DNA of 64,000 nucleotides from Thermoanaerobaculia bacterium. Its GTDB lineage: Bacteria > Acidobacteriota > Thermoanaerobaculia > Multivoradales > J023. Positions 53,540-61,380 of the stretch are shown piece by piece. Below the pieces are notes generated by a model. It did not search any database, had not been told where the DNA came from, and saw only the letters and a list, made by a program, of their open reading frames with translations. How positions within the stretch are numbered: the first letter of the stretch is position 1; each line of letters starts with the position of its first letter. Made by a program: the position numbers and the translations under genes. Where the stretch lies: positions 1 through 64,000 of the forward strand of contig JALCBJ010000028.1 of assembly GCA_028066595.1 (NCBI GenBank). The letters are read 5' to 3'.

Positions 53540-55816
53540 TCAGACCAGGCTACCGGCAAACTCTCCCGCATTCTTGAGGAAGATCGTCGTCGGAAGTCCT
53601 TCTGCCAGCTCGAAGAGTCGATCGGCATACTGGGCCTCGGCACCAGGCGACGGCGTCGTCAATCCCAGAATTACGAGATGCGCCCCAGCGCTGTGCCGAT
53701 GCAAGATGTCCGCGAAGAGCTCTCCTTCGGCGCGCAGGATGATCTCGGTTTCGGCACGGATACGGATCTCGGGGATGAGCGTCGCGAGGGAAGCCGCCAT
53801 GCGTTCCCCTTCTTCCTCGGTCGACACCACCGAGCGCACCACGATGCGCGCCTCGTCCCACTCCGGATTCAAGCTGAGCAGGTAGGCGAACAGCAGCATC
53901 ATGTCGCCGTTGTTCTCCAGTCCGCCCCACCAGAGGTCGATGCGCTTCTTCCGCCCGGGCTCGATGTTCCAGCGCAGGCGAGCGATCAGAGTCGACTTGC
54001 CGACGCGGGCTACCGAGCGCAGCACACGCAGCTGCGCGGCCAAGCCGCCCTTGTCGCGCGGCCAACCGAAGAAAATGATGTTCGACTGGAGGCCGGCGAT
54101 GCCGTTGGCCTGGGTGACGTCGATGGCTCCGCCGACCAGGTCCGAGACGACGTTGACTTCACAAAATGCGCTCAGCCCGGAATCGTCGATCGACCGCTCC
54201 AACTCTTGCAACGGCGTCTCGACGTCGACGTCGACGTCCTGCAAGCTACCTTCGATCAAGCGGCAAGCGGTCACCACCCCGCGACTCTGATTGAACCAGC
54301 TGGCCAGGCGTACCAAACCGATGTGACGCTTGGGATCGCCCACGAAGACCAAGATGTGGGGACGCCAGTTGCGCGGATCGGCCTTGTGACGACGGAGGCG
54401 CAACAGCGCCGCACGGGCCACCGCCAGCCACAAACCGGCTCGGACGTCGCCCCATCGCTTCTCTATCGACCGCCGCCGCAAGAAGATCCAGATCGCCGTT
54501 TCCAACACCGCCGCCACCAGACAGGCCCAGGGACTGATCAAGAACATCACGAGAAGGGAACCCAGCGCCCCCAGGAACGACGCTTGCCACGGCACCTTGA
54601 TGGTGGGTCGGTAGGACGGGTCGCCGGTGACCTCTTCGATGCCCGCTGCCAGGTTGATCATGAGGTATAGCGTCAGGAAGAGAACCGTCACCAAGGTCGC
54701 GACTTCGTTGAGTCCGCCGAGAGCCACCGCCGCCAGCGCGATGGCACCGCTCGTCCAGGTCGCCACCGTCGGCTGTCCTGTCTTCGATACCCGGCTGAGG
54801 AATCGTGGCGCCAGACCGTCCTGCGCCAGAGCTTGCAGCACGCGAGGTCCTCCGAGGGCGGAGCCGAATGCCGAGGAGAGCACCGCGCCCCAGACGCCGG
54901 GAAAGACGAGGAGCGAGCCGAGCAGTGCCATCTCCAACCAGACCCCGAGCCCGGGCTGCGACAGCTGTTCCGGGCTCACGTCCGCGATGGCCAGGAGTGT
55001 CGGCACCAACAGGTAGACCGCAGTCCCGGTCACCACCGACCAGAGGGTGCCCCGCGGAATCGAGCGTCTGGGATCTCGCAGGTCGCCACTCATGCCGATG
55101 CCAGCAGCGAATCCGGTAACCGCTGGGAAAAAAACGGCGAACACCGCCCAGAAACCGTCGGCACTTTGGAAGCTTGGATCCCAACGGGGTGCTTGACGCT
55201 CGCCACCGAGCACCCCGATCGCCAGAGCGGCCAGCGACAGCCCGACCAACACCAGGATCGGGACCTGCGCTTTCAGGGTGAGGCTGGCGCTTCGCCCTGC
55301 CACCGCGGTCACGAAAATCACCGAAACCCCGGCCACAGCCTGAACGGCCCACCCCGGGGCCGCTCCCCACTCGGCGGGCCAGAACAGCATCAGGCTCTCC
55401 GCCAAGCCGAAGCAGTAGAAGGTGATCGACAGCGTGCGGCAGAGAAAGAGAGGGATGCCGATGGCACCGCCCAGCTCCAAGCCCAGGCTGTGGGAGATCA
55501 TGTAGTACTCGCCGCCCACACCGACCCGCATGTTGGTCGCCACCGCCGAAGCCGACAACGCCGTGATAAACGCGATGGCGCTCGACAGCAGCACGATCAC
55601 GAGAGTCAGGCCCAGACCCGCGTTGCCCACGACCCAACCGAACCGCAAGTACATGATGAGGCCCAGAATGGTCAGCACACTGGGCGTGTAGACGCCGAGA
55701 AAGGTGCCGAATCGTTCCGGCTCTGGAGCTGCGCCCGTGGTTCCGGCAGGCGTCAACGCTCCGGCGGGCGCGCCGTCGGCCACCTCCACCGGAGTCACGA
55801 TGGGTCTTGCCGTCAT
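53540..55816 (-). CDS. APC-superfamily permease of the cation-chloride cotransporter (SLC12-like) type
   Basis: A 758-aa protein from ATG 55816. Twelve helices fill about residues 35-475: FGTFLGVYTPSVLTILGLIMYLRFGWVVGNAG opens exactly like SLC12/NKCC carriers, with VGGEYYMISHSLGLELGGAIG, FAVFFPAVTGFAAGIGMSGDLRDPRRSIPRGT and DGLAPRFLSR following. A large soluble C-terminal domain (about 500-758: PHILVFVGDPKRHIGLVRLASWFN, IDLWWGGLENNGDMMLLFAYLL) is also of cotransporter type. Family members move K+ and/or Na+ with Cl-; bacterial ones are poorly studied. It begins 22 bases after the DAC-fusion gene ends, so the two are almost certainly co-transcribed. Confidence 0.87.
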   Translation of the reverse strand: MTARPIVTPVEVADGAPAGALTPAGTTGAAPEPERFGTFLGVYTPSVLTILGLIMYLRFGWVVGNAGLGLTLVIVLLSSAIAFITALSASAVATNMRVGVGGEYYMISHSLGLELGGAIGIPLFLCRTLSITFYCFGLAESLMLFWPAEWGAAPGWAVQAVAGVSVIFVTAVAGRSASLTLKAQVPILVLVGLSLAALAIGVLGGERQAPRWDPSFQSADGFWAVFAVFFPAVTGFAAGIGMSGDLRDPRRSIPRGTLWSVVTGTAVYLLVPTLLAIADVSPEQLSQPGLGVWLEMALLGSLLVFPGVWGAVLSSAFGSALGGPRVLQALAQDGLAPRFLSRVSKTGQPTVATWTSGAIALAAVALGGLNEVATLVTVLFLTLYLMINLAAGIEEVTGDPSYRPTIKVPWQASFLGALGSLLVMFLISPWACLVAAVLETAIWIFLRRRSIEKRWGDVRAGLWLAVARAALLRLRRHKADPRNWRPHILVFVGDPKRHIGLVRLASWFNQSRGVVTACRLIEGSLQDVDVDVETPLQELERSIDDSGLSAFCEVNVVSDLVGGAIDVTQANGIAGLQSNIIFFGWPRDKGGLAAQLRVLRSVARVGKSTLIARLRWNIEPGRKKRIDLWWGGLENNGDMMLLFAYLLSLNPEWDEARIVVRSVVSTEEEGERMAASLATLIPEIRIRAETEIILRAEGELFADILHRHSAGAHLVILGLTTPSPGAEAQYADRLFELAEGLPTTIFLKNAGEFAGSLV

Positions 55817-55838: not shown

Positions 55839-58800
55839 TCACAGAGAGAGAATCCGGCGGCCTTCGTCGTACAAGGTGATAGGACCGTCCTGGGACACGG
55901 TGATCGCCAGGGCACCGGTTTCCGTGCTGATCTTCGCGGCACTGGAATGGCGAGCGCCCTTTCCGGGCCCTACCTGCGCCTCGGTACCCGCGTCTGGGCG
56001 CAGCAGCACCATGCAGGCGCGGAAACGTCCGCTCCGGCTGTCGATGACGGTGGCGCCATCCTGCTGGGCGAAGTTGATCAGCTCGTCGTCGGAGAGGGAA
56101 GCTACCGCCGCGCTGACCAGCAGCGCGAAATGGGAGATCTCGGGCGCATCGGACTTGGCCAGGATGGCGTCCGCATCGCCGAGCAGGAAAATCGCGCCGA
56201 GGTTCTCCTCCGACATCCGAAACGCACAACGAAGCAGGCGCCGGAGCAAGGTGGCGTCGTAGCCCCTTTCGGCGGTGAGAGATTCCAGGATCGCGTCCAG
56301 CTGCCCGGTCACTTCCGGGGCCCAATCGCCATTGGAATAGCGGCCCACCAGCGCGCCCTGGGCGAAAACGCGCACCTGCCGTCCGCCCTTGGGTACGAAG
56401 AAGACCACCGCGTTGCACCGCTTCGACACGTCGGAATGCAGCCTGAACTGTGGGCCCAGCACCGCTGCGGGTGCTGCCGGCAGCTCCAGGTCCAGTCGGC
56501 AGATGCCCCGGACGTAGCCATGGCGATCCACGACGTAGGCCAAGACCAGACCATCTACCAGCTTGGCCAGGTCCACGAGTCGGTTGCGCATACGCCGGAT
56601 GTGGTCGTGGCGGCGAAGCTGGATGAGGCTCGGAGACAAGACGCGATGGATGCGCATGGGGTCGCCGACGATCAGTGCCGTCGACAGTGGTTTTTCTTCC
56701 GCCTCCATCTGCGCGACACTGGCCGCTGTGTCGCAGATGTGGACCACCGAGGGCGCGTCGATACGCTGAGCGCGAGCCAAGTCGAAGAGGAAGCCGATCC
56801 CGGCATCGCCGGTCCACGCATCGAGGATCGACTCTTTCTCCAACAGCTCCCGCAGTCGCTCCGGCCCCACTTCGACCTGCGTGATCTCCCTTTCTGGACG
56901 CACAGATCCCCGCGGATACATGGCCTGAATCGCATCGGACCAACGCTGTGCCAACTGGGTGCGATCGTGCGCGCGATCATCTGCCAGCTGCCTCGCTTCG
57001 CCGGCCGTTTCTTGGCCGAGCAGCGAGTAGCTGCCGATCCGCTCCCACTCGTCCACCGAAGCATTGACCTTGCTCACCAGCGCGTCGAACAGTGCTTTGA
57101 CCCTCGCGTGGGCGTGCGTGGTCAACGAGATCCCGGTCTCGTCGGGCGAAGACCAGATCCAGCGCAGGGTCGACGCCGGCCCCGTACCGGCCTCCACCGG
57201 CTCGACCATCTGGTTCACCACGTGATCGAGGCCGTCGTCCTCGCCGGCTTCGACATCGTCCGCTGAAACAGCCTGTGCACCGACGCCGGATTCCTCCCCC
57301 AGCTGCTCCGTCAAATGTGCGGCGATCGCCTCCAAGTCAGGCACGATGAACGCTGAAACGTAGGGCCGGCTCTCGCCAAACACCGCCGCTTGGTGGACGA
57401 AGGGACTGGTCATCAACTTGGCTTCGATCTCCGCGGGCCAGACCTTGCGACCGGTGGACAGGATGAGTGTGTCACCCTTGCGACCCGTGACGAAGAGGAC
57501 ACCGTGTTCGTCCAGCCGTCCGTAGTCACCCGTGCGAAGCCAGCCGTTCTCGTCGAAGCTGCTGCGGTCGAACTCCGGCTGCTGCCAGTAGCCCCGCATC
57601 ACTGTCTCCCCGCGCACCAGCAGCTCGCCGTCACCGGCGATGCGCAGCTCGAAGCCCTCCGCCGCAGGTCCGCAAGCGTCGATCGGCGTCGGGTTCTGTC
57701 CGGCGGTCGGCAGATTGACCGCCGGGAAACCACCAGCCTCTGACTCGCTGTAGACGTTCACCGGCTCCATACCGATGGCTCGCAACGACTCGGCGAGCTG
57801 CCGGGGCAACGAAGCACCCGTGCAGTAGAAGCGTCGAAAGCGCCCTCCGAAATCTCCGCGGATCGACGAGAAGAACGTCATGTCGGCTCGGGCGTAGCGC
57901 TCGCGCAACTCGCGTGACGCGTGGTCGCCCGCTGCCTGGAGCTGACGACCCGTCGCCAGCGCCCAGTCGAACATCGCCTGACTCGACTCCGGCAGCTTCC
58001 GGATGCGTTTTTGAATGACCTCGTCGTAGGCCCGTTCCAGGGCGTTCGGTATCGTCAACGCCACCGTGGGACTGACCTGCTGAATCTCCTCGAAGATCAG
58101 CTCGCGACTCTGCGCCAGCGCGTTGGGAACGCCGTGGATCAGCCAGTACAACGAGCTATCGAGGCTGGGCATGTAGCTCCAGGGCATCGCTGTGAAGGCC
58201 AGGTCATCCTCGTCGACTTCGAGCCAAGCACCGATATGGCGCATCGAGGCGTGACGCTGACCTTGGTCGAACACCGCGCCCAGCGGCACGTCACCCCGGG
58301 ACGAGGCGTAGTAGATGCAAGCCAACGAATCGCTCGGCACCGACCGCGCCTGCTCCTCCACCTCCGCCTCCGCCGTTTCGTCCAGACGCTCGGAAACCAA
58401 GCTCGCCAGGTCGAGCACGCGCTCGGTGTCGTCGTCTGCACCGGAGTCTTCCAGGTCGAGTATCAGTTCCAGCTCACCGAAACCCTCTCCCGCCAACGTC
58501 AGGCTCTCCACCAGCGCCGCAACCCGTTCGCTGCCGCCCACCGCCACCACGCGGGCGGCGCAGTCGGCAACGATCTTTCGCACGGTATCTGCCGGCATGG
58601 AGTGGCGAATCGGCACCACGGCAGCACCTGCCAAGATCGCCGCGAGGTGCGTCTGCATCCACTCCGGGGAGTTGCCGGCCCAGATCGCGATGCGCCGACC
58701 ATGCAGCCCCCGATCGAGAAAGAAGCGAGTCAAACGCAAGGTCTGACGTCGCAATACGCGATACGAGACGTCGCGCCACCTCCCGGCCCGCTCGATACGA

Positions 58801-58931
58801 AAACACGTCTCGGCAGCAAAGCCGTCGAAGGCCTGGAGGATCAGCTCATTCAGCGTTCCGGTGTCCGAGGCCAGTCGCTGTCGATCGGCCGCCGATTCGG
58901 CCGACGGATCGGATTCCGTAGTGACCGTCAT
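55839..58931 (-). CDS. acyl-CoA-synthetase-like / diadenylate cyclase (DAC) fusion protein
   Basis: A 1030-aa cytoplasmic protein from ATG 58931. Residues about 25-620 form an adenylate-forming (AMP-binding) domain: RIAIWAGNSPEWMQTHLAAILAGAAVVP, FYCTGASLPRQLAESLRAIGM, WLRTGDYGRLDEHGVLFVTGRKGDTLILSTGRKVWP. Its ATP loop is degraded (YYASSRGDVPLG, 207-218; Leu217 replaces the conserved Lys) and the late catalytic-lysine segment is missing. Residues about 690-860 resemble a decayed DAC domain (DGL at 793). Residues about 880-1030 are a DAC (DisA_N) domain with QQDGATVID (D958) and GARHSSAAKISTETGALAITVSQDG (G992-H995), where DisA/CdaA have GTRHR. It therefore probably makes c-di-AMP from two ATP. 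Co-transcribed with the cotransporter gene. Confidence 0.85.
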   Translation of the reverse strand: MTVTTESDPSAESAADRQRLASDTGTLNELILQAFDGFAAETCFRIERAGRWRDVSYRVLRRQTLRLTRFFLDRGLHGRRIAIWAGNSPEWMQTHLAAILAGAAVVPIRHSMPADTVRKIVADCAARVVAVGGSERVAALVESLTLAGEGFGELELILDLEDSGADDDTERVLDLASLVSERLDETAEAEVEEQARSVPSDSLACIYYASSRGDVPLGAVFDQGQRHASMRHIGAWLEVDEDDLAFTAMPWSYMPSLDSSLYWLIHGVPNALAQSRELIFEEIQQVSPTVALTIPNALERAYDEVIQKRIRKLPESSQAMFDWALATGRQLQAAGDHASRELRERYARADMTFFSSIRGDFGGRFRRFYCTGASLPRQLAESLRAIGMEPVNVYSESEAGGFPAVNLPTAGQNPTPIDACGPAAEGFELRIAGDGELLVRGETVMRGYWQQPEFDRSSFDENGWLRTGDYGRLDEHGVLFVTGRKGDTLILSTGRKVWPAEIEAKLMTSPFVHQAAVFGESRPYVSAFIVPDLEAIAAHLTEQLGEESGVGAQAVSADDVEAGEDDGLDHVVNQMVEPVEAGTGPASTLRWIWSSPDETGISLTTHAHARVKALFDALVSKVNASVDEWERIGSYSLLGQETAGEARQLADDRAHDRTQLAQRWSDAIQAMYPRGSVRPEREITQVEVGPERLRELLEKESILDAWTGDAGIGFLFDLARAQRIDAPSVVHICDTAASVAQMEAEEKPLSTALIVGDPMRIHRVLSPSLIQLRRHDHIRRMRNRLVDLAKLVDGLVLAYVVDRHGYVRGICRLDLELPAAPAAVLGPQFRLHSDVSKRCNAVVFFVPKGGRQVRVFAQGALVGRYSNGDWAPEVTGQLDAILESLTAERGYDATLLRRLLRCAFRMSEENLGAIFLLGDADAILAKSDAPEISHFALLVSAAVASLSDDELINFAQQDGATVIDSRSGRFRACMVLLRPDAGTEAQVGPGKGARHSSAAKISTETGALAITVSQDGPITLYDEGRRILSL

Positions 58932-59025: not shown

Positions 59026-61380
59026 TTACCGACCCACCGACTCCTCGGTACTCGGCTTCGTTTCGCCGGATGTCTCCAGAGCGACGAGGTGCCCGAGGGT
59101 GCGGACGTAGAGCACGTCGTCCGAGACGGCGGGCGACGCCATCACGACCTCGCCCACCGAGTTGACCGCGACGCGCTCGAAGCTGCGTCCGTGACGGAAG
59201 ACATAGACGTCTCCATCCTCACTCGCGACGTAGAGATGTCCGCCGGCGGCGACCGGAGAAGCGGTCACTGCAGCGGAGCCCCGTTCGGCGATGCGCTCTT
59301 TGTACAGTTCTTCGCCAGTGACGGCATCGCGAGCGGTGACGATGCCACGCATCTGAACCAAGTAGAGAACATCGCCATAGACGACCGGAGTCGGAATGTA
59401 GACACCGCCTCGAGGATCCCACCAGGCGATGTGCGCGGCCGCCTCGACGGGTCCCGCCTCGGTTTCCTCGGGATCGGGAATCGAGATATCACCGCGACCG
59501 CCCGGGCGCACCGCGTAGATGGGTTGGATCGGGCGGTAGCGAGCCGTAACGAAAATCAGGTTGTCCGGCCCGATCACCGGTGTGGCCACCGTGACCTCGC
59601 CCGTGGGTTTGAGATGCCACAGCTCCTCACCGGAGTCCGGGTCGTAGGCGCGAATGTCACGACTACCGTTGGTCACCAGCTCCATGCCGTCGGGGCCCTG
59701 CACGAGCGTCGGCGTGCCCCAAGACGGAAGATTGTCACGCTCCGTCTTCCAAACCTGTTCCCCGGTCTTCGCATCGTAGGCAGCAAGGAAGGCGTGGCGG
59801 TTGTCGTCCGCCTGCAGGATCACCTTGCCGTCGTGGAGAATCGGCGAACTGGAAAAGCCCCACTCGTAGCTCGGATCGTAGAACCAGCCCACGTCCAGGG
59901 TGCCCAGGTCCTTCTTCCACAGCAGCTTGCCGTCCATGTCCCAGGCGAACAGACCCTCGCTCCCGAGCATGGCGACGACGATCTTGCCGTCGGTAGCAGG
60001 CGTCGAGTTGGCTTGTGTCGCCTTGAAATGATGTGCAGACCGCGGCGCTCCTTTCGCGGCGTCGTGAGTCCATCGGACCTCGCCCGTGCGCTTGTCGAGG
60101 GAGATCATCTTCCACGCGTACTCGCCTTCGATCTCGATCACGTCGACGTCGCCGGACAGGCCCGAGCGAAACTCGCCCTCATCGCGATCGGCGACCGCGG
60201 TGGCGAGAAAGATCTGATCGCCCCAAATCACCGGCGAAGCGTGTCCACGCCCGGGCACGGCGACCTTGAACAACACGTTCTCCCCCGACTCGAGGTTCCA
60301 GTGAACGGGCGTCGCGCCGTGCGCCGTGCCGGCGGCATTGGGACCCCGGAATGCCGGCCAATTGCCCGTGGTCGAAGCCTTCGGTAGCGGGGCGCGGGAG
60401 GCAGTCTCGGTTGCAGCCGTCGTGGAGGCTGACTCGGCCGCCGCGGGAGCTTCGGCTCCTTCGGCAGCGGCCGCCGTCTCTGCATCAGCGACCTCTCCTT
60501 CGACCTTGCGGGCGAAGCGAGCCGGTTCCGGCAGACCCTGCTGGGTGTACATGAATCCAGGTGATGGTCCGCCCTCCTCGAACGTCATCTCGAGTGGGAA
60601 TCCATTGGCGGCACGAAACGTCGCCTCTGCCGTCGCTTCCAAGACGAGTTTGGGCTGCTGCATGAACTGGAAGTACAGCGCACCGTCTTCCATGCCGATC
60701 ACGCCCTCCATGGCGGGCTGTTCCTCGACGAAGTAGGTCCCGACGAAACGCTGTAGTTGCTCCTCGCTCAAGGAGACCTCGGACGGGGCAGGCGGCTTGG
60801 CGCCCGCTTCCTCCAATATCGCCACGACGTCCGCATTGCCCGCCTGCTGGGCCTGGCCATAGATGGCCGCCAGTGTGTCCTCGTCGAGATCTCCGGCTTC
60901 GAGAATGGCCTTGATGACGTCGGTGTGGCCCCGGAACATCGCCATGCCCGCGACCTGTCCGGCACCCGTCGCACCTTTTTCGTAGAGAAAGCGCACGGTT
61001 TCCGCACGACCGTCGTAGGCCGCCCAGCCTGCGGGAGTCGATGAGTAGAACGTATCCGTGGCATCGACATCGGCGCCGCGCTCCACCAGTAGCTTCGCCA
61101 CCTCGAGGTGACCCTTGCTGGCCGCGTAGGTGAGCGCCGTCGCACCGTATTGGTTGGTGCCATCTACCGGCACTCCGGCATCGAGCCGGCGTTTCACCTC
61201 GTCCAGGTCTCCCTGCCGCGCTGCCTCGTGTAGGGCTTCGACCTGCTGCGGATCCACGGCCGCGGCTTCGGTCCCAGTGCTCGCGGCCTCCTCGCCGGAG
61301 TCCTGGCCTAGAGAGGCAGTAGCCAACAGTCCGAAGAAAGCGAACGACGAAAGTACCAAGGCGAGTCGATGGAGTCGCAT
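59026..61380 (-). CDS. exported ankyrin-repeat and PQQ-type beta-propeller protein
   Basis: A 784-aa protein with signal peptide (LALVLSSFAFFGLLATASLGQ). Residues about 45-195 are ankyrin repeats (EALHEAARQGDLDEVKRRLDAGVPVDG, GATALTYAASKGHLEVAKLLVERGADVDA, in pieces). A beta segment (about 200-300) and an Ala/Glu-rich linker follow. Residues about 340-784 are a quinoprotein/BamB-like propeller (NWPAFRGPNAAGTAHGATPVHWNLE, LFAWDMDGKLLWKKDLGTLD, DIRAYDPDSGEELWHLKPTGEVT). No dehydrogenase catalytic motif is evident; the WPAFRGPNAAG-type opening is common in large families of secreted propellers. Periplasmic location likely; role unknown. Divergent from the next gene (52 bases). Confidence 0.82.
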   Translation of the reverse strand: MRLHRLALVLSSFAFFGLLATASLGQDSGEEAASTGTEAAAVDPQQVEALHEAARQGDLDEVKRRLDAGVPVDGTNQYGATALTYAASKGHLEVAKLLVERGADVDATDTFYSSTPAGWAAYDGRAETVRFLYEKGATGAGQVAGMAMFRGHTDVIKAILEAGDLDEDTLAAIYGQAQQAGNADVVAILEEAGAKPPAPSEVSLSEEQLQRFVGTYFVEEQPAMEGVIGMEDGALYFQFMQQPKLVLEATAEATFRAANGFPLEMTFEEGGPSPGFMYTQQGLPEPARFARKVEGEVADAETAAAAEGAEAPAAAESASTTAATETASRAPLPKASTTGNWPAFRGPNAAGTAHGATPVHWNLESGENVLFKVAVPGRGHASPVIWGDQIFLATAVADRDEGEFRSGLSGDVDVIEIEGEYAWKMISLDKRTGEVRWTHDAAKGAPRSAHHFKATQANSTPATDGKIVVAMLGSEGLFAWDMDGKLLWKKDLGTLDVGWFYDPSYEWGFSSSPILHDGKVILQADDNRHAFLAAYDAKTGEQVWKTERDNLPSWGTPTLVQGPDGMELVTNGSRDIRAYDPDSGEELWHLKPTGEVTVATPVIGPDNLIFVTARYRPIQPIYAVRPGGRGDISIPDPEETEAGPVEAAAHIAWWDPRGGVYIPTPVVYGDVLYLVQMRGIVTARDAVTGEELYKERIAERGSAAVTASPVAAGGHLYVASEDGDVYVFRHGRSFERVAVNSVGEVVMASPAVSDDVLYVRTLGHLVALETSGETKPSTEESVGR

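Follow-up and report, generated by a model that had tools for sequence, protein, structure and literature searches.

How does a diadenylate cyclase (DAC) domain come to stand at the end of a protein that begins like an acyl-CoA synthetase, and what would such a protein do? The question is raised by a gene in the window, the whole 64,000-nucleotide stretch of Thermoanaerobaculia (Acidobacteriota) DNA analyzed here, where a 1030-aa open reading frame with an ATG start fills positions 55839-58931 of the reverse strand exactly. Together with this frame, Pfam matches and orthologues delineate three parts: an acyl-CoA-synthetase-like (ANL) domain, a decayed DAC-like unit (pseudo-DAC) and a DAC domain, all features of the window described below being on the same strand. 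The joining of a broken-looking fatty-acid-activating domain to a DAC domain may be an unstudied way to link metabolism with second-messenger signalling. We lean towards reading the protein as an additional, DacZ-related cyclase, whose output would be set by the dead acyl-CoA-synthetase-like part, acting as a sensor, together with the pseudo-DAC.

A Pfam scan of the 1030-aa protein placed PF00501 (AMP-binding) at residues 50-449 (E 1.6e-36), with a short match to AMP-binding_C_3 at residues 487-536. By PF00501 and by the predicted fold, similar to those of FadD13 and benzoate-CoA ligase, the large ANL subdomain extends over residues ∼24-485 (57477-58862); the small C-terminal subdomain, which carries a long insert, occupies residues ∼486-675 (56907-57476; PF23562/PF13193). 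In the full-length model, local pLDDT of the N-terminal half was mostly 70-95, and the ANL part matched both benzoate-CoA ligase and FadD13 with Z 44; the match to the benzoate-CoA ligase structure covered residues 21-647. The first-pass annotation, made from the sequence, had assigned an adenylate-forming fold to the first ∼600 residues: PF00501 and the Z score bear out the fold, and the boundary has to be moved to residue ∼675.

At the other end, the DAC domain (residues 879-1030, 55842-56297) was recognized by PF02457 and by structural match. The PF02457 match (residues 904-1025, E 1.7e-14) scored 53.9 bits, where the gathering cut-off is 27, and was unchanged when the C-terminal 151 residues were searched alone. 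In a model of the C-terminal 386 residues (pLDDT 63.6, built from an 11-sequence alignment), model residues 237-386 matched Mycobacterium tuberculosis DisA (9y9y) with Z 12.2 (123 residues, rmsd 2.9), and the structures of CdaA and DacM matched the same domain with Z ∼10-11. Searching PDB with an alignment of the C-terminal part yielded nothing useful. The models are of moderate confidence (pLDDT 63), with the pseudo-DAC and part of the DAC scoring lower; as predictions they support the ANL fold and the DAC fold each in its own right and lend no support to any relative arrangement of the two. Thus, both the profile match and the fold were found where a C-terminal cyclase had been proposed, and the signatures FAQQDGATVID, GARHSSAA and ITVSQDG were exactly as then quoted. 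The search for DAC-associated sensor domains that had been suggested, run against Pfam with residues 600-1030 and E up to 10, returned PF02457 alone and none of the known sensor domains.

The stretch between these two domains had been described as a second, decayed DAC-like unit, and this description held. Profile–profile comparison (HHalign) of residues 676-878 with four DacZ-like DACs aligned the full domain with score 51.4 (E 9e-8, for a single comparison), whereas 20 control comparisons (ANL slices, column-shuffled and reversed profiles) scored at most 19.5; moreover, the helices and strands predicted for this unit follow one another as they do in the true DAC. Direct comparison with the protein's own DAC was weak (score 26); the assignment was therefore made through the DacZ-like DACs. 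VIA-align showed no DAC among the matches listed for this part, where confidence in the model is low and a single domain took up the whole list. Judged by its sequence, the decayed unit is a pseudo-DAC, located by HHalign and alignment at residues ∼735-870 (56322-56729). Its D793-G794 pair, at the position of the DG of the DGA motif, is invariant; the RH pair is replaced by [Q/R]F, with an invariant F829 in place of the catalytic His, and the SEE position is lost. The retained DG is of interest because, according to PMC6741144, the DGA aspartate contacts ATP bound to the partner DAC; the pseudo-DAC would probably pair with the true DAC.

How widespread is the fusion? A scan of 84 980 species genomes found ten loci, three in Acidobacteriota and seven in Anaerolineae or other Chloroflexi, with the C-terminal 391 residues 57-70% identical. 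Whole-genome searches within the window's order (72 genomes) detected the fusion in 4, all of one family; among 396 Acidobacteriota genomes there was no strong match outside the window's own genome and a second genome from its genus. In the class Anaerolineae it was present in 15 of 396 genomes (as short pieces in two of these), and some genomes (G448, G667 and G646) carry two or three copies. Our alignment comprises 20 full-length copies, of which 16 come from Anaerolineae (Chloroflexota) and 4, with that of the window, from Acidobacteriota (Thermoanaerobaculia). The order ANL, pseudo-DAC, DAC is common to all of them, and an architecture kept whole across two phyla excludes chance. The Acidobacteriota sequences take two separate positions among those of Chloroflexota, which points to horizontal transfer.

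One protein, encoded at L081:6490-7815 (reverse strand) in genome G850, has the pseudo-DAC and the DAC without an ANL domain; it is 51-54% identical to the fusions and sits on a long branch. It indicates that the tandem DAC forms an independent module, to which the sensor is not essential. In another genome (G707; L061:627-2213, reverse strand) the ANL frame is apparently broken upstream of an intact pseudo-DAC and DAC, by a frameshift or an assembly error.

Is the ANL domain still an enzyme? At residues 208-222 (58266-58310) the alignment shows a degenerate A3 phosphate loop, YASSRGDVPLGAVFD replacing YTSGTTGxPKGVxxx. The TSGTTGxPKG motif is missing from all 20 copies; the window's genome encodes five other ANL proteins that retain it. 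The A8 Arg varies among copies, and the A10 lysine, retained in some Chloroflexota copies (TPSMKISR / GELTPSMKISR), is absent from the window's copy, from the other Acidobacteriota copies and from several Chloroflexota ones. The A5 Glu (with one Asp exception) and the A7 Asp remain. Of the features of an active synthetase, the ANL part in the window has the fold and lacks the A3 loop and the A10 lysine. Mean pairwise identity over the 20 copies is 67% in DAC plus pseudo-DAC versus 45% in the ANL domain. The motif losses beside fixed DAC motifs fit a ligand-binding pseudoenzyme kept as a regulatory domain. Hence the sensor role that the first-pass annotation had put forward for this domain, inferential as it is, is strengthened by the loss of the phosphate loop in 20 of 20 copies and of the A10 lysine in most, with the DAC motifs unchanged.

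According to the structural review PMC7288161, the residues that make up the ATP site of a DAC are Leu of GALI, Asp of DGA, Thr, Arg and His of GTRHR, and Ser and Glu of SEE. In the fusion the DGA motif (residues 958-960, 56052-56060) is invariant in 20 of 20 copies, GAI is present, and the D, R, H and S of the active site do not vary at all. The strict GTRHRxA motif is not found; every copy has G[A/S]RHSSA instead (GARHSSA in the window, residues 992-998, 55938-55958), so that RHR has become RHS with loss of the second Arg, and the usual Thr of the motif has become Ala (Ser in one copy), two substitutions that the earlier annotation did not mention. The equivalent of (V/I)SEE is VS[Q/H]DG throughout (VSQDG at residues 1012-1016, 55884-55898), with SQD or SHD at the SEE position. 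With RHS and the Thr-to-Ala change the DAC could be altered or weak. Nearby DacZ-like proteins have RHA, RHF, RHH or RHL with the other motifs intact, and the final Arg of RHR thus varies in this branch. Taken together, the sequence motifs suggest that the DAC domain is likely an active cyclase. A canonical CdaA is encoded separately in the same genome and in all four Chloroflexota genomes tested; therefore the fusion would be an additional, input-specific synthase.

The DAC domain comes nearest to the DacZ-like branch (HHalign score 107, E 5e-18, over ∼115 columns; the score for CdaA was ∼39). The DacZ model of NCBIfam was the best of the DAC models, but at 40 bits against a cut-off of 430. 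Models PF21755, PF19294 and PF02887, for the PK_C-like sensor of DacZ, had no match in the window protein, with L019 and L036 serving as positive controls. A member of the DacZ class, that of Haloferax volcanii, makes c-di-AMP, as stated in PMC6741144.

We saw signal-transduction genes adjoining the fusion in ∼13 of 20 loci (a raw count). Ser/Thr kinases flank L008, L011, L061 and L062; at L012, L063, L065 and L066 there are SpoIIE phosphatases, accompanied in some cases by STAS proteins or HATPase; histidine kinases are near L007, L013 and L014; and universal stress proteins (USP) adjoin L068 and L070. Two loci (L065:1880-7949 and L066:6685-13046, the neighbours in the latter assigned by matching ORF layout and sequence rather than by a scan of its own) have in common an apparent operon of SpoIIE-HATPase, two STAS genes, a pentapeptide protein gene and the fusion, with apparent regulation of the partner-switching type. 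At L070:9066-10427 (reverse strand) a DHH-type gene adjoins the fusion; its product, partly masked (X), matches a solved cyclic-dinucleotide phosphodiesterase with E 1e-4.

In the window, a gene for an SLC12-type cation-chloride (K-Cl) cotransporter (53540-55816; Pfam/NCBIfam and PDB matches, KCC2/KCC1 with E ∼1e-87) starts 22 bp downstream of the fusion. According to PMC4686210 and PMC8214093, potassium transport is under the control of c-di-AMP, which binds KdpD through its USP domain in Firmicutes; the cotransporter and the USP neighbours are therefore plausible targets. In view of this role in potassium control, the cotransporter is an unusual gene to find next to the fusion. As a conserved partner it was rejected: among the loci examined it adjoins the fusion in the window only, not even throughout the genus. 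Directly upstream of the fusion and on the same strand, positions 59026-61380 encode ankyrin repeats joined to a PQQ-type beta-propeller. No c-di-AMP riboswitch was found in the window or its genome, and PADLOC gave no match to an anti-phage system.

From the architecture, conservation, motif losses and predicted folds that we observed, the following scheme can be drawn, in which cyclase activity, ligand class, direction of regulation and targets are what we infer. Two copies of the DAC domain would dimerize face to face and make c-di-AMP from two ATP. The N-terminal domain probably descends from a long-chain acyl-CoA synthetase and, with the ATP-phosphate loop gone and the A10 lysine mostly gone, would no longer activate fatty acids. 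With its fold and two residues of the adenylate pocket (E398 and D469) still in place, it may be the sensor of a ligand, for example a fatty acid, an acyl-adenylate, an acyl-CoA or an adenine nucleotide. The pseudo-DAC, which has kept its DG pair and lacks the phosphate-binding His, would most likely pair with the true DAC within the chain and relay the state of the sensor, either helping or blocking the formation of productive DAC dimers. Counting against the scheme are the altered RHR and Thr positions, the lack of a c-di-AMP riboswitch in the genome, the unconserved cotransporter and the ANL-free protein of G850. One could go further and speculate that this is a new class of diadenylate cyclase, with a former acyl-CoA synthetase as sensor of acyl-adenylate or acyl-CoA and the internal pseudo-DAC as on/off switch, which would tie fatty-acid status directly to c-di-AMP and partner-switching stress signalling; we offer this extended version tentatively, as plausible and short of probable.

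Several other readings were weighed. Both enzyme-like parts could be dead. The protein would then serve as a receptor or scaffold for ATP, AMP or CdaA-made c-di-AMP and hand the signal on to neighbouring kinases, phosphatases or STAS proteins. The altered RHR and Thr positions of the DAC would agree with this, as would the separate CdaA in the window's genome and the four tested Chloroflexota genomes, the signalling genes as neighbours, and the loss of the motif His (GARTTAA) in related Acidobacteriota tandem proteins. However, all 20 copies have the D, R, H and S of the DAC active site unchanged, a conservation stronger than a binding-only role would need, and the third position of RHR varies also in DacZ-like proteins with otherwise intact motifs; we regard such a receptor as unlikely. 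That the protein is instead bifunctional, with the ANL domain activating an unusual acid, the DAC making c-di-AMP and the two coupled via shared ATP, AMP or pyrophosphate, is improbable given the phosphate loop missing from every copy, the variable A8 Arg and the faster evolution of the ANL part compared with the DAC, even though the A5 Glu and A7 Asp remain and several Chloroflexota copies still have the A10 lysine.

The tandem of DAC and pseudo-DAC, the invariant DG of the pseudo unit and the changes in RHR and SEE that the whole family shares would also be in line with a different nucleotide product, or with an asymmetric pair of DAC and pseudo-DAC in place of a symmetric dimer. Yet the GAI and DGA motifs, which contact adenine and ribose, look standard, and we give this reading a small chance of being right. 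As to an artefact of assembly or gene prediction, the window does come from a draft assembly of 228 contigs; still, independent genomes of two phyla, among them a single-contig chromosome (L014, CP070811), supply 20 full-length copies with the same architecture. An assembly artefact was rejected on these grounds, and the probability left to this explanation is negligible.

If the preferred reading, a DacZ-related cyclase controlled by a dead ANL sensor and a pseudo-DAC, is correct, c-di-AMP signalling would be extended in Chloroflexota and Acidobacteriota, which are little covered in the literature searched. It is mostly unknown what c-di-AMP synthases respond to, and we found no class described that has a sensor of lipid or adenylate type; with its conserved, degenerate acyl-CoA-synthetase domain, the fusion defines a candidate class of ligand. 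The DAC and pseudo-DAC in tandem also offer a system for control of DAC pairing inside one chain. In the available sections of PMC6741144, DAC classes (DacA/CdaA, DacB/CdaS, DacC, DacD, DacE, DisA, CdaM and DacV to DacZ) are distinguished by the attached domains, among which those sections do not mention an ANL domain. The literature searched, to which the 2015 survey of nucleotide signalling (NAR, gkv1267) did not belong, yielded no description of an ANL–DAC fusion and, in agreement with the first-pass annotation, no DAC class with such a partner.

Compared with known systems, the ANL part resembles in fold and sequence (E ∼1e-46 to the FadD3 family) long-chain acyl-CoA synthetases (FadD and the FadD11/FadD13/FadD3 type) and the A domains of carboxylate reductases; unlike these, it is devoid of the A3 loop, decayed at A8 and A10, and attached to a DAC. 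Tandem DAC-like proteins of Acidobacteriota (L020, L023 and L026) have an apparent pseudo-DAC followed by a DAC-like unit with DGA; they are 25-29% identical to the G850 protein, have lost the His of RHR (GARTTAA) and differ from the fusion in the N-terminus. With L021 and L024 they make up a separate family of ∼450 aa, with DGA kept and RHR changed to RTT, possibly inactive or a receptor; the two members scanned had no Pfam match. CdaA, CdaS and CdaM share the DAC fold, and the DAC of the fusion keeps DGA and RH; the CdaA and CdaS models did not match the fusion and the CdaM match was marginal. DisA likewise shares the fold (the Z of 12.2 above); in contrast to DisA, the DAC of the fusion is C-terminal, preceded by the ANL domain, and no DNA-binding domain follows it. 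Closest to this DAC are the DacZ/DacY (CdaZ) proteins, archaeal and some bacterial, from which the fusion differs in the absence of a PK_C-like N-terminal sensor and in the insertion of a pseudo-DAC.
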